Assembly (NCBI GenBank): GCA_026707405.1 | Contig: JAPOWW010000009.1 | Location: 62,001-126,000, forward strand | Length of the DNA: 64,000 bases | Source of the DNA: Chloroflexota bacterium | Lineage (GTDB): Bacteria; Chloroflexota; UBA11872; VXNJ01 | Direction: 5' to 3' | Shown here: positions 46,617 to 57,088 of the stretch, piece by piece | Layout of the letters: each line of letters starts with the position of its first letter | Numbering within the stretch: position 1 is the stretch's first letter | Notes under the pieces: model-generated | Databases searched by the model: none | Seen by the model: only the letters and a program-made list of their open reading frames with translations | What the model was told of the DNA's origin: nothing | Position numbers and translations under genes: made by a program

Positions 46617-47522
46617 ATGGACCCGATGATCGAAGTTCTTGACACACGCCTTCTGCGCCTGATTCGGGACGATGCGGAGATCGAACGGATAGCGGGTGGC
46701 TTCACATTCACCGAAGGGCCGCTTTGGCGTGGCGACCATCTGCTGTTCAGCGATATACCAAACAACCGCATCGTGAGATGGGAGGAGGGGCCTGAGGGGC
46801 CGTCGGTGAGCACGTTTCGGACGCCGAGCGGGCGCTCGAACGGTCTGACCCTGGACAAGCAGGGACGCCTGATCGCCTGCGAGCATCAGGGGCGACGCGT
46901 ATCGATAACGCAGGCGGACGGTTCGGTGGAGCCGCTGGCCGAGTATTACGACGGGAAGAGGCTCAACAGTCCGAACGACGTGGCTGTCCGCTCGGACGGG
47001 ATCGTCTATTTCACCGACCCGCCCTACGGCCTGCTTCCATGGCCGGGCTCGGGTGACGCCGAAATCCCTAGCGAAATCGGGTTCAACGGACTGTACAGAG
47101 TGCTGCTAGATGGAACGGTGGAATTGCTAGCCGATGATTTCGTGAGGCCCAATGGACTGGCTTTCAGCGTCGATGAGAGCATCCTGTACGTGGACGATAC
47201 TCACGCGCGGCACATAAGGGCGTTCGACGTGGCTGCTGACGGGTCGCTGAGCAACGACCGCGTTTTCTTCACCTACCTCGGCGTCGCCGACGAGCACGGA
47301 CCGGACGGAATGAAGATCGACGTGGAGGGGAATCTGTGGGTAACCGGTCCGGGCAGCACGTGGGTGGTGTCGGCGGAAGGCGAGGCGCTGGGCCGGATCC
47401 GGCCTCCCGAGCATCCGGCGAATCTGGCGTTTGGCGGCTCTGATTGGAAGACGCTGTTCATGACCGCCGACACGAGCGTGTACCGGCTCAGGGTCAATGT
47501 GGCCGGGGTCGCCGTTCCGTAA
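46617..47522 (+). CDS. SMP-30/gluconolactonase family protein
   Basis: The 301-residue six-bladed beta-propeller is likely to hydrolyse a sugar lactone. The metal ligands are the Glu in FTFTEGPLW (about 34), Asn in LNSPNDVAV (about 119) and Asp in YVDDTHARHI (about 190). There is no signal peptide. It sits 115 bases after the ligase gene and just before a secreted glucose dehydrogenase-like protein, with which it may form a lactone-producing and lactone-opening pair. Confidence 0.9.
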   Translation: MDPMIEVLDTRLLRLIRDDAEIERIAGGFTFTEGPLWRGDHLLFSDIPNNRIVRWEEGPEGPSVSTFRTPSGRSNGLTLDKQGRLIACEHQGRRVSITQADGSVEPLAEYYDGKRLNSPNDVAVRSDGIVYFTDPPYGLLPWPGSGDAEIPSEIGFNGLYRVLLDGTVELLADDFVRPNGLAFSVDESILYVDDTHARHIRAFDVAADGSLSNDRVFFTYLGVADEHGPDGMKIDVEGNLWVTGPGSTWVVSAEGEALGRIRPPEHPANLAFGGSDWKTLFMTADTSVYRLRVNVAGVAVP

Positions 47523-47565
47523 GGAAGTCAGGCAGACGCTGCGCTCGATCAAGTCCTGCCGTCTG

Positions 47566-49143
47566 ATGAGGAAGCTCCTCTGGGTTCTTGCGTTGGCCGG
47601 ACTCCTTGTAGTCGCTGCCGCTTGCGAGGAAGGCGGTCGCGAGACAGCGCCAACACCGCGGGCGGAAGCTTCACAGCCGACGGCGACGGCTCGCGTCGAG
47701 ACGGAGGCGGTCCCAAGTCCGACGCCGCCGACTCCGACCGCCACTACCGCAGCCCCTACGACGGTCGCGCCCACTCCGACGCCTACAAGCACGGCCGTTC
47801 CCACCGCAGCCGCGCCGCTGGAATACGAAGTCAGTCCGAACGACACGCTGTCGGAGATCGCCCGCCGCTTTGGAGTTACAACGAGTGAGCTGGCGGAAGC
47901 GAACGAGATCGAGAACCCGGATGAAATTCGGGCCGGTGAGGTCTTGAGAATCCCGACCTCGCCGGCCGGCGACAGTAGCGCGCCTACGCCTACTCCTTCG
48001 CCAACGCCGACCGATGAAGCGGAGGCCAAAGAGGCGGAACAGTCGCCGACTCCGGCCGCGCCGACGCTGGCGGGAATCGCGGTCGAAAAGGTGGGTGAGG
48101 ACTTCGAGCAGCCGGTCCAGCTAACCCACGCGGGCGACGGATCGGGGAGGCTGTTCGTGGTGAGCCGGCAGGGGACGATACAGATCCTGAAAGGCGGCGT
48201 AGTACAGCCTGAACCGTTCATGGACATAGGGGATCTGGTTAGCACGGGAGGGTCGGAGCAGGGACTGCTGGGTCTCGTGTTTCATCCCGATTACCGGAAT
48301 AACGGACGCCTGTTCGTGAACTACACGGACAGGGACGGGGATACAGTGATCGCCGAATACCGTGTGGCTTCGAATGATCCAGATCGGGCGGCTCCAGACG
48401 CATTCCAAATCGTCCTGGAGTACGAGCAGCCGTACAGAAACCACAACGGCGGAATGCTTGCGTTCGGTCCGGATGGATATCTGTATATCGGAACGGGCGA
48501 CGGCGGGAGCGGGGGCGACCCGCAAGGCTACGGGCAGAAACTCTCCACGCTGCTTGGGAAGATGCTACGGATAGACGTGGACGCCGGTTCGCCTTACGTC
48601 GTGCCCGCGGACAACCCGTTCGTCGGCGAAGCGGGGGTTCGGCCGGAGATATGGGCTTACGGACTGCGCAACCCGTGGCGCTACTCGTTCGACCGCGAGA
48701 CGGGCGACCTGTACATCGCCGACGTGGGGCAGAACAGACTGGAGGAGGTGCACTTTCAGCCTGCCGCGAGCGCCGGGGGCGAAAACTACGGGTGGAACAT
48801 CATCGAGGGGTCGCGGTGCTTTGCACCGGGTGAGGGTTGTGACAAGAGCGGACTAGTGCTCCCTATTGCGGAGTATGGTCGCGACGACGGCTGCTCGATA
48901 ACCGGCGGCTACGTCTACAGGGGACAGTCGGAGGCGGCGCTGAATGGGCACTACCTTTTCGGGGACTTTTGCAGCGGCCGCATCTGGACGGTAGTGAGAT
49001 CGGCGGACGGCGTCTGGACCACGACCGAGCGGCTAACGACCGGTCTGAACATCAGCTCGTTCGGCGAAGATGAGGATGGAGAGGTCTACTTCCTCGACTA
49101 TCGCGTCGGATCGGTTTTCCGAATCAAGGCCGTGACCGGATAA
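47566..49143 (+). CDS. lipoprotein with LysM domain and glucose/sorbosone dehydrogenase domain
   Basis: ATG 47566 opens a clear lipoprotein signal (MRKLLWVLALAGLLVVAAAC, lipobox VAAAC); the frame upstream overlaps the lactonase gene and is ignored. The 525-residue product has a Pro/Thr-rich linker, one LysM domain (about 98-145, YEVSPNDTLSEIARRFGV), a second Pro/Thr linker and a GSDH beta-propeller (about 185-525). The propeller shows LGLVFHPDYRNNGRLFV, RNHNGGMLAFGPDGYLYIG with the catalytic-type His, and EIWAYGLRNPWRYSFD. Such domains oxidise sugars with PQQ, or sometimes bind other ligands. LysM would attach it to peptidoglycan. Confidence 0.9.
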   Translation: MRKLLWVLALAGLLVVAAACEEGGRETAPTPRAEASQPTATARVETEAVPSPTPPTPTATTAAPTTVAPTPTPTSTAVPTAAAPLEYEVSPNDTLSEIARRFGVTTSELAEANEIENPDEIRAGEVLRIPTSPAGDSSAPTPTPSPTPTDEAEAKEAEQSPTPAAPTLAGIAVEKVGEDFEQPVQLTHAGDGSGRLFVVSRQGTIQILKGGVVQPEPFMDIGDLVSTGGSEQGLLGLVFHPDYRNNGRLFVNYTDRDGDTVIAEYRVASNDPDRAAPDAFQIVLEYEQPYRNHNGGMLAFGPDGYLYIGTGDGGSGGDPQGYGQKLSTLLGKMLRIDVDAGSPYVVPADNPFVGEAGVRPEIWAYGLRNPWRYSFDRETGDLYIADVGQNRLEEVHFQPAASAGGENYGWNIIEGSRCFAPGEGCDKSGLVLPIAEYGRDDGCSITGGYVYRGQSEAALNGHYLFGDFCSGRIWTVVRSADGVWTTTERLTTGLNISSFGEDEDGEVYFLDYRVGSVFRIKAVTG

Positions 49144-49181: not shown

Positions 49182-49532
49182 CTAGTCGGCGCCGATTTCC
49201 TCGAACTCCCGGCGGTCGAATCCGGCGATGATCTGTTCGCCAACGACTACGAGGGGCCGCCGGATCAGGGTTGGGTCTTCGACCATCAACTCGATGAGCT
49301 GGTCGTCCGTTAAATCGGCGGTATCGAGCTTGAGCTCCCTGAACTTCCTGGAGCGCCGGCTGAGGAAATCGCGAACGCTTCGCCCGGCCAACAGACTGCT
49401 CAACTCATCCACGGTGAACGGCTGCTTGAAGTAGTTGCGGACCTGGTATTTGACTCCCCTGCTATCCAGCAGGGCCGTGCCTTTACGGCAGCTCGATCAG
49501 CCGGGTTTGATGTATACGAGAGGTTCGCTCAT
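49182..49532 (-). CDS. ArsC/Spx-family thiol reductase, probable selenoprotein (Sec at TGA 49497-49499)
   Basis: Conventional calling starts at 49412 and yields 76 residues of the ArsC/Spx C-terminal half (DLTDDQLIELMVEDPTLIRR, PLVVVGEQIIAGFD). Upstream in the same frame the coding sequence continues without break except for one TGA: ATG 49532 gives MSEPLVYIKPG-TGA-SSCRKGTALL. Reading TGA as Sec gives a 116-residue protein, the normal family length, with U12-x-x-C15 followed by RK, precisely where the family has the redox C-x-x-C. A SECIS-like hairpin lies downstream (separate entry). A GGAGGG stands 11 bases before the ATG. The gene begins 23 bases after the D-aminoacylase stop on the same strand. 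It would be a cytoplasmic thiol oxidoreductase, arsenate reductase-like or Spx-like; the substrate is unknown. Confidence 0.85.
49457..49474 (-). promoter_or_regulatory. bacterial SECIS-like hairpin
   Basis: On the minus strand CCCTGCT (49474-49468), loop GGAT (49467-49464), AGCAGGG (49463-49457): a perfect 7-bp stem with a four-base loop that begins GG. The loop starts 30 nt after the TGA codon. Bacterial SECIS elements known from formate dehydrogenase and others have a small loop with G in the first two positions, about 16-37 nt after UGA; SelB with Sec-tRNA binds there. Confidence 0.75.
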
Positions 49533-49555: not shown

Positions 49556-51160
49556 CTATGCGGCTTGGGGGCCGCGAAGCGCTCGACCGGGCAATTCCTT
49601 CGATTGCGCACCGTCTCGCACGACGAATCGACCGCCAACGATAACATGCACGATACCCTCGGGAAATTGATGCGGGTCGTCGAAGGTGGCGGTGTCGATT
49701 ATCCGGTCGGGATCGAACACGACCAGATCGGCATCGCGTCCCGGCTCAAGGAGTCCCTTGGCTTCGAGACCCATTTTCTTGGCTGGAAATCCCGTCATCT
49801 TGTGAACGGCTTCTTCGAGCGGGAAGAGGTTTTCGTCGCGGGCGTAATGTCCCAGGACTCGCGGGAAGGCGCCGTAATACCGCGGATGGGGACGGCCCAT
49901 CCCAAGCGGCGGTTCGGGCGAGATGGCCGAGCCATCGGAACCGATCATTGCGGCGGGATGGCGCAGCACGTATCTAACGTCCTCTTCGTCCATAACGAAG
50001 TGGATAAGGGCGCCTTGCAATTCTTCTTCGATCAGAATGTCGTGCGCGGCGGTCTCCGGCGGGACACCTCTCCGGCGCGCTATCTGGGCGACGCTCTTTC
50101 CGACTACGTCCGGATTTCCCGACGCCGTCCAGGATATGTAAGTCGAGTCCCACTCACGCTGCTCTGATCTCAATTCGGCTTCAAGCCGGTCTCTGACAGC
50201 ACGGTCTCGCAATCTGGCGAGGATTGCATCGCTACCGCCTTCGTGAGCCCATTCGGGTACTAACTGTGTGATGCTGCCACCGCCGGCGGGATACGGATAG
50301 ACATCGACGGTCACGTCCACGCCGCGGTCCTGGGCGGCTTCGACCATAGCCAAGGATTCGCGCACGCGCCCCCAGTACGGCCTGCCCGACGCCTTGTGAT
50401 GGGCTATCTGGACGGCGACACCGGCGCGCTCACCGATCTCGATAGCCTCGGCGACCGCTCGGAGGAGGCTATGGCCTTCGCCGCGTATGTGGCTGAAATA
50501 GACCCCGCCGAACTCAGCCAGGACTTCTGCCAGCTCGACGATCTCGTCCGTCTCGCTGTAGGAGCTTGGCGGGAAGATAAGCCCGGTCGAAAACCCGAAC
50601 GCGCCCTCTTCGAGCGACGCGTGGAGCAGCGCCTTCATCTCGTTTAGCTCGCCGCTGGTGGGATAGCGCTTGTCATAGCCCATCACCGCGGTGCGGATGG
50701 GCACATGCCCGACAAGGGCCAGTACATTGACGGCGACGCCGGAGGCGTCGAGACGGTCGAGGTAGCCGCCCATCGAGTCCCATGACCAGTCGAAGTCGGC
50801 GCCCATTGCCAAGTGCAAGCTTGTCGAGACCATGTCGCTCCGATTGAGGTCGGTGACGGGGGCGGGGCTGAATCCGCAGTTACCGACGATTTCGGTGGTT
50901 ACGCCTTGACGGACCTTGCTCTGGGCAGCGGGATCGATGAGGAGCGGGAAGTCGGAATGGCTGTGAGTGTCGATGAAGCCGGGGCAGATAACGAGACCGT
51001 CAAGGTCGATAACCGTACGGCCCCTGGAGCCGGGAATCTCACCGACCGCCGCAATGGTGGACCCGTTGACCGCGACCGCGCCTGAACGCCGGGCGGCTCC
51101 CGTACCGTCGAGGATCGTGCAGTTATCGAAAACGATGTCGTAGTCGGCGGACGCGTTCAC
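49556..51160 (-). CDS. N-acyl-D-amino-acid deacylase family amidohydrolase
   Basis: A metal-dependent amidohydrolase of 534 residues. It has the first metal site CPGFIDTHSHSD, VGNCGFS with the metal-bridging Cys, HIRGEGHS, QIAHHKASG and the late Asp in MIGSDGSA. Family members release D-amino acids from N-acyl-D-amino acids or D-peptides; some are dihydropyrimidinase-related. GTG 51160 with GGGAG 7 bases upstream is preferred to GTG 51196. The selenoprotein gene follows directly and the SDR gene precedes it on the same strand. Confidence 0.9.
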   Translation of the reverse strand: MNASADYDIVFDNCTILDGTGAARRSGAVAVNGSTIAAVGEIPGSRGRTVIDLDGLVICPGFIDTHSHSDFPLLIDPAAQSKVRQGVTTEIVGNCGFSPAPVTDLNRSDMVSTSLHLAMGADFDWSWDSMGGYLDRLDASGVAVNVLALVGHVPIRTAVMGYDKRYPTSGELNEMKALLHASLEEGAFGFSTGLIFPPSSYSETDEIVELAEVLAEFGGVYFSHIRGEGHSLLRAVAEAIEIGERAGVAVQIAHHKASGRPYWGRVRESLAMVEAAQDRGVDVTVDVYPYPAGGGSITQLVPEWAHEGGSDAILARLRDRAVRDRLEAELRSEQREWDSTYISWTASGNPDVVGKSVAQIARRRGVPPETAAHDILIEEELQGALIHFVMDEEDVRYVLRHPAAMIGSDGSAISPEPPLGMGRPHPRYYGAFPRVLGHYARDENLFPLEEAVHKMTGFPAKKMGLEAKGLLEPGRDADLVVFDPDRIIDTATFDDPHQFPEGIVHVIVGGRFVVRDGAQSKELPGRALRGPQAA

Positions 51161-51206
51161 GGGCGTTCTCCCACTGGAGTTACGGTCGAGCGGCACTCAG
51201 CCTGCG

Positions 51207-52583: not shown

Positions 52584-53306
52584 TTGGACTCGAACGGGAA
52601 TCGCACAACGCTCGACGCTGACCAGGCCGTCAAAATGCCGAGCTCGACCATTCAGGACTACCTGCTGGCGATCTACAGCCTGGACTTCGAACAGGTGCAC
52701 GTAATAGCGGCGCGACTGGCGGAAAAGCTCGAGGTCTCAGCTCCGACCGTCTCGGTGACGGTAGAGCGGATGGTCAGGGACGGTTACGTGGACGTCGACA
52801 GCAACCACACGATCACCTTGACCGAAAAGGGGCGGGCCGTGGGCAGCCGGGTGGCCCGGCGTCACAGACTGATTGAGCGCTGGTTGAACGACATGCTGGA
52901 CCTCGACTGGGTGATGCTTCACGACGAGGCGCATCTTCTCGAACACTCCCTTTCGAGCGCGTTGGAACAGAAAATATCCGAAGCGCTGAATCATCCGGAG
53001 ACTTGTCCGCACGGGAATCCGATTCCCGGAAACGCCAAGAACTGGTCGTTCGAAGGCATGAAGCAGCTTTCGGAATCGGAAGCTGGAGAGAAATTGAAAG
53101 TAGCGAGAATATCGGAGCTTGCCGAGGACAACGCCGAGATCATGCGCTATCTGCAACAGAAGAACCTGGTGCCGGACACTTCATTGGAGGTCCAGGAGAT
53201 CACGCCGTTTGGCCATGTGGTACTCAAGGTAAACGGCGATATGGCGGTCATCGACCCGGAAATCGCCGTGTACGTATGGACCAGATCGGCGGCGGCTCCG
53301 AATTAG
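52584..53306 (+). CDS. DtxR/MntR family metal-dependent transcriptional regulator
   Basis: The 240-residue protein has a winged helix (about 18-75; AARLAEKLEVSAPTVSVTVERM), a dimerisation and metal-binding domain (HDEAHLLEHSLS; NHPETCPHGNPIP, about 110-150) and a C-terminal SH3/FeoA-like domain. Members sense iron or manganese and repress uptake genes. The start is TTG 52584, with AGGGA about 12 bases upstream. It precedes an ABC exporter by 72 bases, an arrangement that suggests, without proof, control of that operon. Confidence 0.9.
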   Translation: MDSNGNRTTLDADQAVKMPSSTIQDYLLAIYSLDFEQVHVIAARLAEKLEVSAPTVSVTVERMVRDGYVDVDSNHTITLTEKGRAVGSRVARRHRLIERWLNDMLDLDWVMLHDEAHLLEHSLSSALEQKISEALNHPETCPHGNPIPGNAKNWSFEGMKQLSESEAGEKLKVARISELAEDNAEIMRYLQQKNLVPDTSLEVQEITPFGHVVLKVNGDMAVIDPEIAVYVWTRSAAAPN

Positions 53307-53378
53307 CGCGTCGGCGCCGAAACAGGGACGACGCACGACAAGCACGGAAACCTACGGAATCGACGGAGGCCTGATAAC

Positions 53379-54296
53379 TTGCCGATAGTGGAAGTGCGCG
53401 ATCTCCGTAAGCACTACGGAGACGTGAAGGCCGTGGACGGCCTTTCGTTCGAGGTCGAGCCAGGCGAGGTCTTTGGCATGTTAGGCCCCAATGGCGCGGG
53501 CAAGAGCACAACGGTCGAGATCGTCGAGGGGCTGCGCGAGATGGACGCCGGTCACGTGCGAATACTCGACCTCGACCCGCACCGAGACAGGGTGAAAGTC
53601 AGAGAATCGATAGGGATTCAGCTTCAATCGGCGTCGCTTTTCGACAAGCTGACGGCGCGTGAGCATCTAGCACTCTTCTCTTCTTTCTATTCGCGAACCC
53701 GAACCGTGGACGAGCTAATTGAGCTGGTCGATCTGGCGGACAGACAAAACGCAGTCTCCAAGGAGTTGTCGGGCGGCCAGAGACAACGCCTGTCGTTCGC
53801 CCTCGCGATGGTCAACGACCCGGAGGTCGTGTTTCTGGACGAGCCCACGACGGGGCTCGACCCGCAGGCGCGAAGGCACATGTGGGACGTGGTCGCGGCG
53901 ATGGGGAAGGAGGGCAAGACGGTCTTTCTGACAACTCACTACATGGAGGAAGCCGAGCTGCTGTGCGACCGGATCGCCATAATCGACCACGGCAAGATTA
54001 TCGCGCTCGACACTCCGGCGCGGCTTATCGAAAGCAATTTTCAGGCGCAGACCGTCAGCTTCGATACGGCCCACGGGAGCTTGTCCACAACTGAGCTCGA
54101 GTCGCTGTCAGGCGTGACCCAAGCGGTTGCCGACGATGGGCATGTCGAGCTGTTCACGGCCGACGTAGCCGCAACGATAGGCGCGCTGATGGACTACGCG
54201 AGACAGCAAGACGTGCCGATGAGCGATCTGAATATCGGGCAAGCCAATCTGGAGGACGTGTTTCTGAAATTGACGGGCCGCCGGATACGCGATTGA
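53379..54296 (+). CDS. ABC transporter ATP-binding protein (ABC-2 type exporter)
   Basis: The 305-residue ATPase has MLGPNGAGKSTTVEI (about 35-49), signature LSGGQRQRLSFAL (about 129), Walker B VVFLDEPTTGLDP and TTHYMEE. The C-terminal extension (about 215-305) is typical of drug or polyketide exporters (DrrA/CcmA-like). The start is TTG 53379. It overlaps the permease gene by four bases. Confidence 0.93.
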   Translation: MPIVEVRDLRKHYGDVKAVDGLSFEVEPGEVFGMLGPNGAGKSTTVEIVEGLREMDAGHVRILDLDPHRDRVKVRESIGIQLQSASLFDKLTAREHLALFSSFYSRTRTVDELIELVDLADRQNAVSKELSGGQRQRLSFALAMVNDPEVVFLDEPTTGLDPQARRHMWDVVAAMGKEGKTVFLTTHYMEEAELLCDRIAIIDHGKIIALDTPARLIESNFQAQTVSFDTAHGSLSTTELESLSGVTQAVADDGHVELFTADVAATIGALMDYARQQDVPMSDLNIGQANLEDVFLKLTGRRIRD

Positions 54297-55378
54297 AAGC
54301 CATCGGCGCGTTAATTCTGGCGCTTGGCCGCGAGTTCGTGCGGGACCGTACCGCGCTGTTCTTCACGCTGGCGTTTCCGTTCATCTTCATGATCATCTTC
54401 GGGCTCTTGATGCAAGGGTTGGACCGACCGCGCAACTTCGACATCGGCCTAGTGGTGGAAGACGCCTCGCCGGCGGCAAGCGGGCTTGCGAACGCGCTGC
54501 GGAATGTACCGGTTCTGAAGATCACCGAAGACGGATTCGACACCGAGCAAGACCGGCTGGAGGAAGGCGACCGGGACGCGGTTATCGTCGTTCCCGAAGG
54601 GTTTGGGGATACGGTGACAGCGGGAGCGACGGCGACGGTCCGCGTGTTCTTCGATCCGTCGCGTCAAACGACCGCGACGATAGTGCTGCCTATCTTGTCG
54701 CAGATTCTGGACGGAATAGATCGAGTGCGAGCGGGCACTCCACGGGGACTCGTGATCGAGCCCGTCTCGGTGGTGGCTTCCGACCTGCGTGTCGTGGACT
54801 TCGTCGCGCCGGGAGTAATCGCGATGAGCGTGATGCAGCTTGGGGTGTTTTCCTCGATAAACCTGGTGATGAGGCGCGAGAAGCTGATCCTCAAGCGTCT
54901 GGGCGCCACACCCATCCGGCGCGAAACGGTTATTGCCGGCGAGGTCTTGTTCCGGCTGATCATCACGGCGGTGCAGGCGGTCCTGCTCGTAGCGATGGCG
55001 AATCTTGCGTTTGGGGTGCCGATACAAGGAGGCTTTCACGAGCTGATCGCGATAGTCGGTCTGGGGGCGCTGGCGTTCATCGGTCTCGGATTTGCGATCT
55101 CTTCGTTTGCCAAAACCGAAGAGGGGATGCTGCCTATCGCTCAGCTCGTGTCTCTGCCGATGATGTTTCTCTCGGGGATTTTCTTTCCGATAGACGGACT
55201 TCCGGGCTTCTTGCAGCCGGTGGTGAAAGTGCTGCCGCTCACCTTCCTGGGCGACGGGATCCGGCAAACGATGGTTGGCGGTTTCAGCATCAACGCGATG
55301 TGGGTGAACTATATGGCGCTGGCGCTATGGCTGGCGGCGACATTTCTGGTGGCGGTGCGGCTGTTCAAGTGGGAGTGA
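54293..55378 (+). CDS. ABC-2 type transporter permease
   Basis: A 361-residue membrane subunit with one N-terminal helix (about 19-42), an extracytoplasmic domain (about 50-170) and five helices in the C-terminal half (APGVIAMSVMQLGVF, LIITAVQAVLLVAMANLAFG, FLSGIFFPIDGLP). FLSGIFFPIDGLPG is a hallmark of the DrrB/YhhJ type. The start is TTG 54293 within the ATPase stop. The substrate is not known. Confidence 0.9.
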   Translation: MKAIGALILALGREFVRDRTALFFTLAFPFIFMIIFGLLMQGLDRPRNFDIGLVVEDASPAASGLANALRNVPVLKITEDGFDTEQDRLEEGDRDAVIVVPEGFGDTVTAGATATVRVFFDPSRQTTATIVLPILSQILDGIDRVRAGTPRGLVIEPVSVVASDLRVVDFVAPGVIAMSVMQLGVFSSINLVMRREKLILKRLGATPIRRETVIAGEVLFRLIITAVQAVLLVAMANLAFGVPIQGGFHELIAIVGLGALAFIGLGFAISSFAKTEEGMLPIAQLVSLPMMFLSGIFFPIDGLPGFLQPVVKVLPLTFLGDGIRQTMVGGFSINAMWVNYMALALWLAATFLVAVRLFKWE

Positions 55379-55417
55379 AGGGGCGAGGCGTGGTTGTGGA
55401 GAACACCCTCACCCCAA

Positions 55418-55440
55418 CCCTCTCCCGTCAAGGGAGAGGG
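55418..55440. repeat. perfect intergenic hairpin repeat
   Basis: CCCTCTCCC (55418-55426), loop GTCAA, GGGAGAGGG (55432-55440), in the gap between two convergent genes. This sequence type is a common dispersed intergenic hairpin; here it could also serve as a bidirectional terminator for the permease and the convergent spermidine synthase-like gene, although T-runs are lacking. Confidence 0.6.
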
Positions 55441-55471
55441 GGTGGACGCGGTGGAGGAGGATTGGGTGGCG

Positions 55472-57088
55472 CTAGCGGGCGGTGTTGACCGAGCCGTCTC
55501 CCGACTGGGCGACACCGAGAATCATCTGATGAATCACCTGCTCCACCGGAGCGAGGTCGTCGGTGAAAGCGCCCTCCGAGGATTCGACAGGACGGGGATT
55601 GACGCCCTTTTCCGCTATGGCCCTGATCCAGACGTCGTCGGTTTCGGAGAGCCGCCGGTTGACTTCGTCGAGAGAGATCGGGCTGTTGGAGGCGAATATA
55701 AGGCTGTTGAGGTAGCCGGCGGGAAGGTCGATGACGAATACGGTGGGGAAGACGGATCGCATGGTCTTGCTCAACGCTTCGACGAGGCGAAAGTCGTCAG
55801 GGGCGCGGCCCGCGTTCAGCGCGACGATTCCATCGTCTTCCAGATGACTCTGAATCTCCTCGAAAAACTCGCGCGTGGTCAACTGAAACGGAATGTACGG
55901 CTGCCGGTAGGCGTCGACCATGACCACGTCGTAGGCACGGTCGGTGCGCCGCAGGAAGTAGCGGCCGTCCTCGGCGACGGCGTTCAGGTTCGGCTCGTTC
56001 ATGTCGAACATGTCCCGGCCGATATCGATTATCTGGGGATCGATCTCGACGCCGTCGATATGCGTTCGGTCGCCGTAGACCTGGTTGTAGAGCTTTGAGA
56101 CGGTGCCGGTACCGAGTCCGACTATGAGGACGTCTTCGACCTGGCCGGGATGCTCCTTGCGGAACTGGGGCGCGAGGAGAAAGTAGTCCCAGGGGCCGCT
56201 GGTGAGCGGCTGGATTTCGAGCGCCGGGAAGAACACGGAGTGAGTGGCCAGACCTTCATTGAGCACGAGCCGCCGCATCCCCGAGTCGGTGTCCTGGACC
56301 TGGATGAAGTTGAATATCGATTCGTCTTCGTAGACCAGCGTGCCCCGCTCGGCGGCGCGGACGACGTCGGGCCGGACGTTAACTATCACGGTAATGGCGA
56401 CGAGGACAATGAGCAGAGTCAGGAATCGCCAGCTCTTTAGTCCGGCGACCGCAAGCGCGAGCAACACAAGCGCGAAGGCGAGGAACGTGTTGCGCGTCCC
56501 GATGTTGGGGACGAGCAGCAGCACCGGCAAAAATGCGCCCATGATGCTGCCAAGAGTTCCAAGGGCGTAGATGCGGCCTGCGTTGGCGCCCGCCGAGCTC
56601 AGGTTGGCGGTGCTGAGCCTTATCGCGAACGGAGACACGAAACCGAGGATGGTTATGGGAATCGCGAAAAGGAAGATCACGCCGAACAGGGACCCCCAGA
56701 ATACGCCGAGCGACAGTCCGGCGAAGGCTTCGGTCGAGAGGTTAAGAATCGGCTTCGCGACCAGGGGGATCAGCCCGATGCCGAAGGCGGCGATGGCGAC
56801 GAGACGCAACAGCAGCCGGTCGTCGGGACGCCTGTCGGCGATGCGACCGCCGACGTAGTAGCCGAGCGTGAGATAGAGCAGGACCAACCCGATAAGGTTG
56901 GCCCACACGAACAGATTGTTGCCGTAGAAGGGCGCGAGGAGCCGGGACCCGGCAAGCTCCGCGCCGAGCACGGTCATCCCCGAGAAGAACACTACGGCAA
57001 GCAGCATTCCGTCGCGGACCGTGCGCGGGTAGCGAGCGTCCGGGGAGCCGCTCGAGCTTGGGGAGTCTGGTACTTGATCGGTGCTCAA
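55472..57088 (-). CDS. fused membrane/spermidine synthase-like protein
   Basis: The 538-residue protein has an N-terminal membrane half with about seven helices (about 25-245; LGAELAGSRLLAPFYGN is the family mark) and a C-terminal spermidine synthase-like SAM domain (about 260-510). The latter has VLIVGLGTGTVSKLY, VDGVEIDPQIIDIG and DVVMVDAYRQPYIPFQ. Whether it makes polyamines or methylates another substrate is open; the aminopropyl-transfer Asp region is only partly matched. No speA/speD is nearby. Confidence 0.85.
   Translation of the reverse strand: MSTDQVPDSPSSSGSPDARYPRTVRDGMLLAVVFFSGMTVLGAELAGSRLLAPFYGNNLFVWANLIGLVLLYLTLGYYVGGRIADRRPDDRLLLRLVAIAAFGIGLIPLVAKPILNLSTEAFAGLSLGVFWGSLFGVIFLFAIPITILGFVSPFAIRLSTANLSSAGANAGRIYALGTLGSIMGAFLPVLLLVPNIGTRNTFLAFALVLLALAVAGLKSWRFLTLLIVLVAITVIVNVRPDVVRAAERGTLVYEDESIFNFIQVQDTDSGMRRLVLNEGLATHSVFFPALEIQPLTSGPWDYFLLAPQFRKEHPGQVEDVLIVGLGTGTVSKLYNQVYGDRTHIDGVEIDPQIIDIGRDMFDMNEPNLNAVAEDGRYFLRRTDRAYDVVMVDAYRQPYIPFQLTTREFFEEIQSHLEDDGIVALNAGRAPDDFRLVEALSKTMRSVFPTVFVIDLPAGYLNSLIFASNSPISLDEVNRRLSETDDVWIRAIAEKGVNPRPVESSEGAFTDDLAPVEQVIHQMILGVAQSGDGSVNTAR

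Follow-up and report, generated by a model that had tools for sequence, protein, structure and literature searches.

Background

Selenocysteine (Sec) at the active site of ArsC-like proteins has been described from marine sequence collections. A Sec-containing ArsC with a UxxS motif, 'Arsenate reductase 1' from the Sargasso Sea, has been listed since 2005 (PMC1088965), and a 2008 table for the Global Ocean Sampling set has a UxxC type, 'Arsenate reductase 2, cd03032', with 42 sequences (PMC2398784). A preliminary description of the locus studied here had stated that proteins of this sort were suggested from marine metagenomes, and these two papers bear that out. The use of Sec in ArsC/Spx-type proteins is already known, and the gene presented here is a further case of the UxxC kind. 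What we add is the breadth of its occurrence in the Chloroflexota, a complete genomic context and covariation in the RNA. Among the open-licence papers listed in a search for 'Spx' together with selenoprotein terms, none contained both.

An in-frame TGA in a short reading frame

The window, by which we mean the whole 64,000-nucleotide stretch of Chloroflexota DNA that was analysed, carries on its minus strand (49532-49182) a frame of 116 codons with exactly one TGA, at 49497-49499, and a TAG as terminator. Translated with TGA as U, the frame gives a protein of 116 residues, MSEPLVYIKPG-U-SSC-RKGTALLDSRGVKYQ..., in which U-SSC is followed by RKG. The predicted Sec12 is aligned with Cys12 of the E. 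coli plasmid ArsC and with Cys10 of Spx, and its UxxC partner Cys15 (49488-49490, minus strand) is invariant in the 40 Sec and five Cys homologues compared. The ATG start lies at 49532, preceded by a possible Shine-Dalgarno sequence recognised from the sequence, GGAGGG (49551-49546, minus strand), at a longish spacing of 13 nt. The standard open reading frame list of the segment contained a 76-aa fragment with a GTG start (49182-49412) and nothing longer for this frame. The coordinates and context of the frame given in the preliminary description were therefore correct, as were the natural ATG with GGAGGG upstream and the 76-residue fragment expected from ordinary callers. Conventional gene callers would shorten this gene, and the reading of it as a real selenoprotein with a predicted Sec at the active site is strongly supported. 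Other such genes in the Chloroflexota are probably truncated as well or named RNA-polymerase regulators.

Distribution in the Chloroflexota

A first homologue search covered 61 genomes, including the window's own, and 22 of them gave a match whose frame contains a single TGA. Read in frame, these TGAs all fall in the identical column, in contexts such as K-S-T-U-T-S-C-R-K. We then have a wider sample of 400 Chloroflexota genomes, 47 of which have the protein: 41 as Sec forms (40 listed with one TGA, and G397, in which the TGA is just 5' of the matched stretch), five as Cys forms (G030, G038, G204, G244 and G196) and one as an unresolved fragment (G266). The Sec forms, each with TGA at the identical codon and then xxC, span 15 family labels, and in this phylum the Spx-like ArsC branch usually has Sec and not Cys (41/47 genomes, 15 families). 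Because the TGA stands at the identical codon in 41 assemblies it is no sequencing error, and the same 41 homologues exclude chance as the source of the TGA and hairpin in the window. The preliminary description had matched the TGA to the first Cys in the C-x-x-C motif of the family and proposed an alignment to ArsC/Spx homologues as a check; every homologue aligned has Cys or Sec there.

The relatives are about 33-45% identical, which is probably why a single-protein scan of genome contigs returned no match; 15 Chloroflexota loci in genome contigs were matched by an alignment beginning after the Sec codon. No relatives were found in the viral contigs searched. The same-genus genome G001 matched neither the protein nor the DNA of the locus, and this absence says little because G001 is 84% complete and in 510 contigs. 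The window's genome has no PF03960 gene besides the Sec gene. A tree of 45 proteins has the Sec forms in the majority, with three Cys forms inside Sec-containing groups. As drawn it needs three Sec/Cys label changes, of which the strongly supported branches force only one, and since the deep branches are weak we claim no direction of change beyond these counts.

Selenocysteine machinery

All four genes that the preliminary description had suggested looking for, selA, selB, selC (tRNA-Sec) and selD, are present in the assembly, which is 94.5% complete. The tRNA-Sec (anticodon UCA, 74.3 bits, C13 1110-1203) is on the window's own contig, outside the window and about 110 kb off, and the same assembly has SelA (470 bits), SelB (342 bits against a cut-off of 242) and SelD (408 bits). 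This organism's SelD also contains Sec: its gene (L045 1501-2427, contig C19) has an in-frame TGA, read as U in HGAGUGCK. In the 61-genome set, selA was over cut-off in all 22 genomes carrying the Sec gene and in 53 of the 61 overall; because selA is so common among these relatives, its co-occurrence with the Sec gene is by itself weak, although consistent, evidence.

The SECIS-type hairpin

Bacterial SECIS elements have been given as hairpins with a loop of 3-9 nt containing G in its first two positions, a stem of 4-16 bp, a location 16-37 nt after the UGA and a minimum free energy of at most -7.5 kcal/mol (PMC13188914). The window hairpin, CCCUGCU-GGAU-AGCAGGG (49474-49457, minus strand), has the loop GGAU, a perfect stem of 7 bp, 29 nt between UGA and loop and a free energy of -18.4 kcal/mol over a 53-nt stretch, and is inside all four ranges. 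This agrees with the perfect 7-bp stem, the GGAU loop and the bacterial SECIS geometry noticed in the preliminary description. Taken alone the hairpin is modestly unusual against synonymous shuffles (p = 0.033), and its pure RNA fold score is weak against dinucleotide shuffles (z = -1.55). Because of this weak score, the argument is built on the family-wide test.

For that test a set of 22 Sec sequences was selected to cover the family labels and compared with synonymous-codon shuffles. The combined p was 1.8e-16, an approximate value as the sequences are related, and 15 of the 22 were individually below 0.05; six more widely separated representatives gave a combined p of 5.7e-6. The same shuffles revealed no such hairpin in any of the five genes with Cys (p 0.36-0.86, combined 0.82). 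One geometry is common to 15 genes, with the loop 23 nt after the UGA, a stem of 8 bp and loops such as GTT and GGC, and in this set 95.8% of the cells are paired. Eighteen cells have changed on both sides, compared with 6.0 +/- 1.6 in shuffled sets (0 of 500 reach 18), and the score for two-sided changes falls to 0-3 when the partner is slid. The stems of the Sec-form hairpins thus show compensatory changes. The scorer allows no bulges, and three loci counted as misses (L112, L115 and L119) seem, when inspected by eye, to have the 23-nt geometry with a bulge.

The commonest position across the phylum is 23 nt and that of the window is 29 nt. In the order-level relatives a third position, 18 nt, was found, with a CGTGC loop and one stem pair exchanged between A-U and G-C. 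The window's own family, represented by G003, has a hairpin at the window's position of 29 nt, with the loop GGAC, which is weaker (p = 0.26). Within this one gene family the hairpin is found 18, 23 or 29 nt beyond the UGA, a minimum of three places (L023, L030, L012 and L009). From these sequences the SECIS signal appears to have moved in evolution, conserved in kind while its place shifted between lineages.

Family and fold

Family searches were run with Cys in place of Sec. Pfam ArsC (PF03960) matched residues 7-113 over the whole profile (1-79 of 79) with 6.5e-21 and 74.9 bits against a cut-off of 24, and a weak match to the Pfam glutaredoxin family was also obtained (4e-7). Among the NCBIfam models, TIGR01617 (Spx/MgsR) was over its cut-off (81.8 bits, cut-off 75.05), and arsC TIGR00014 (69 bits, cut-off 106) and the Spx-specific models (72 of 123 bits), Spx PRK01655 among them, were under theirs. 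NF041106, the model for known Sec-ArsC proteins, misses the window protein (38.4 bits, cut-off 85), and its best E-value among 13 relatives was 8.8e-15. The domain cd03032, to which some of the marine sequences were assigned, is presumably the Spx subfamily of ArsC.

The closest solved structures by sequence are Spx proteins (5e-17). An AlphaFold2 model of the window protein (pLDDT 92.9) is closest to Spx 1z3e, with a TM score of 0.85, and ArsC is also among its best folds. By computation on the sequence and on this model, the protein is placed in the thioredoxin-fold ArsC family, in an Spx-like branch.

Possible function

The frame, the correspondence of TGA with Cys, the Sec machinery, the conserved and covarying hairpins and the fold, as judged from the sequence and the structure model, are computed results, and from them we predict that the UGA at 49497-49499 is almost certainly decoded as Sec12 of an ArsC/Spx-like redox protein. 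The proposal of a probable selenoprotein of the ArsC/Spx family is upheld in this way by the sel genes, the TGA/Cys column, the hairpins and the homologues. In the mechanism that we propose, SelB with Sec-tRNA(Sec) would bind the hairpin 29 nt downstream and the UGA would be read as Sec12, and readthrough would give the 116-residue thioredoxin-fold protein of the Spx-like branch of the ArsC family. Sec12 would sit at the N-terminus of helix 1, the usual place of the catalytic or redox Cys of the family. From there it may attack an oxidised substrate or a disulfide, Cys15 may resolve it as a selenenylsulfide, and thioredoxin- or glutaredoxin-type thiols could re-reduce the protein. Judged from motif and fold, a role as an oxidoreductase of the UxxC selenol/thiol type is likely.

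The residue columns of ArsC and Spx were compared across 40 Sec forms, and they bear on two narrower readings. One is a selenium-dependent arsenate reductase, in which Sec12 would attack arsenate and be recycled by glutaredoxin or thioredoxin. The Pfam ArsC match over cut-off is in its favour, together with the active-site Cys column, the equivalent of ArsC Arg94 (Spx Arg92), which is kept in 40/40, and the name 'arsenate reductase' under which the literature lists such proteins. However, of the classical ArsC residues Cys12, Arg60, Arg94 and Arg107 (PMC5360009), the Arg107 column has F, L, A or Y and Arg in 0/40, and the Arg60 column has N, S, A or D, with Arg or Lys one or two columns off where the alignment is uncertain. 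His8 is not retained as a rule, and Pantoea ArsC-like proteins with Arg60 and Arg107 changed conferred no arsenic resistance (PMC5360009). The score of 69 bits with TIGR00014 (cut-off 106), the failure to find acr3 in the 94.5% complete genome and the lack of any adjoining ars gene in the lineages examined also argue against this reading, which we consider unlikely. The other is an Spx-type Sec redox sensor that would bind the C-terminal domain of the RNA polymerase alpha subunit and alter transcription when U12 and C15 are oxidised. Here the best matches in sequence and structure are indeed to Spx, TIGR01617 (Spx/MgsR) is over cut-off, and the Sec forms have an R or K like Spx Arg60 in 38/40 and the Arg92 equivalent in all. 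On the other hand, Gly52 is found in only 2/40; this residue is in the alpha-CTD-interaction region, and G52R was singled out as an activation-defective mutant (PMC2801614). The window protein also has no Spx C-terminal tail, and the Spx-specific NCBIfam models stay under cut-off (72 of 123 bits), so that the sensor seems improbable. As aligned, the residues compared are those of neither a classical arsenate reductase nor a canonical Spx.

That the protein is a regulator and not a Sec-using enzyme, acting as a Sec-based Spx-type redox switch on transcription, is in our estimate very improbable; in the window's family the gene shares a conserved cluster with an ABC-2 transporter and a metalloregulator of the DtxR type. 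We know of no selenoprotein that acts as an Spx-type transcription sensor. A pseudogene or an assembly error, with the TGA as a genuine stop mutation in a gene for a Cys protein, has a negligible probability: 41 genomes belonging to 15 families share the TGA at this codon and conserve the protein downstream of it, and the hairpins show compensatory changes. The reading that we prefer is the UxxC selenoprotein oxidoreductase described above.

Gene neighbourhood

The upstream neighbour (49556-51196, minus strand) is an amidohydrolase by Pfam Amidohydro_3 (2.8e-38), separated from the Sec gene by a gap of 23 bp, and the two are probably co-transcribed. The preliminary description had called it a D-aminoacylase, a name that is not established by the Amidohydro_3 match with NCBIfam PRK09061 below cut-off, and had seen the novelty in its presence beside the Sec gene, which does not hold given that the neighbour is not conserved. 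The amidohydrolase is a lineage-specific neighbour; neither it nor the SDR gene was found beside the Sec gene in other lineages. A functional link between the Sec gene and the amidohydrolase was considered and rejected, the pairing being unconserved in relatives. Just downstream, on the opposite strand (47497-49143), is a protein with LysM and a glucose/sorbosone-dehydrogenase-type domain that matched no NCBIfam model at 1e-20.

In G003, a genome of the window's family, the Sec gene is divergent from four genes (DtxR-type regulator, ABC ATPase, ABC-2 permease and one more), and the same four are in the window at 52584-57025 (53, 52, 45 and 60% identical). The four-gene cluster beside the Sec gene is therefore common to two genera of the family at 45-60% identity, and it follows from this conservation that the amidohydrolase and the SDR sit, in the window only, inside an otherwise conserved cluster. 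In both places (window 52584-57025; L090 6878-11181) the genes are those of a DtxR/MntR-type regulator, a drrA-like ABC ATPase, an ABC-2 permease and a protein of about 510 aa.

Most order-level relatives have a zinc-type dehydrogenase and then the Sec gene, in one genus with an RraA-like gene next, and elsewhere the neighbours are unrelated. One genus (L086 2092-5968 and L087 2088-5968) shows an NCS2-type permease, a methyltransferase, a zinc-type dehydrogenase and then the Sec gene. An arsenic link through this methyltransferase was rejected, as its score with the arsenite methyltransferase model was 72 bits and the cut-off is 263. In the lineages examined, no ars gene was found beside the Sec gene, and the search for a conserved enzyme partner found none.

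Comparison with known systems

The family brings together SECIS elements supported by covariation at three or more positions in one gene family, and its natural Sec/Cys pairs offer material for asking what Sec adds to the fold. Among the described selenoproteins, 'Arsenate reductase 2' from Global Ocean Sampling (PMC2398784) has, by its description, the same UxxC in an ArsC/Spx-type domain and a marine prokaryote setting; it is known there only from 42 environmental sequences, whereas the present case comes from genomes of Chloroflexota in which the Sec system is complete. The proteins of NF041106 (ArsC_rel_Se_1, ArsC family (seleno)protein) are likewise ArsC-like with UxxC, but by that model (38.4 bits, cut-off 85) the window protein belongs to a separate subfamily. 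The UxxS 'Arsenate reductase 1' (PMC1088965) has Sec at the ArsC catalytic position, as predicted here, but is without the resolving Cys of the window protein's UxxC.

From the E. coli plasmid ArsC, a glutaredoxin-dependent arsenate reductase with which it has the active-site Cys12 column and Arg94 in common, the window protein differs by a predicted Sec for Cys, the extra resolving Cys15, the missing Arg107 and a non-Arg residue in the Arg60 column. The closest in both sequence and structure is Spx/MgsR (TIGR01617; B. subtilis Spx 1z3e), which has the same fold, the same CxxC position and the Arg60- and Arg92-like residues; compared with Spx, the window protein would carry Sec in place of Cys10 and is without Gly52 and the C-terminal tail.
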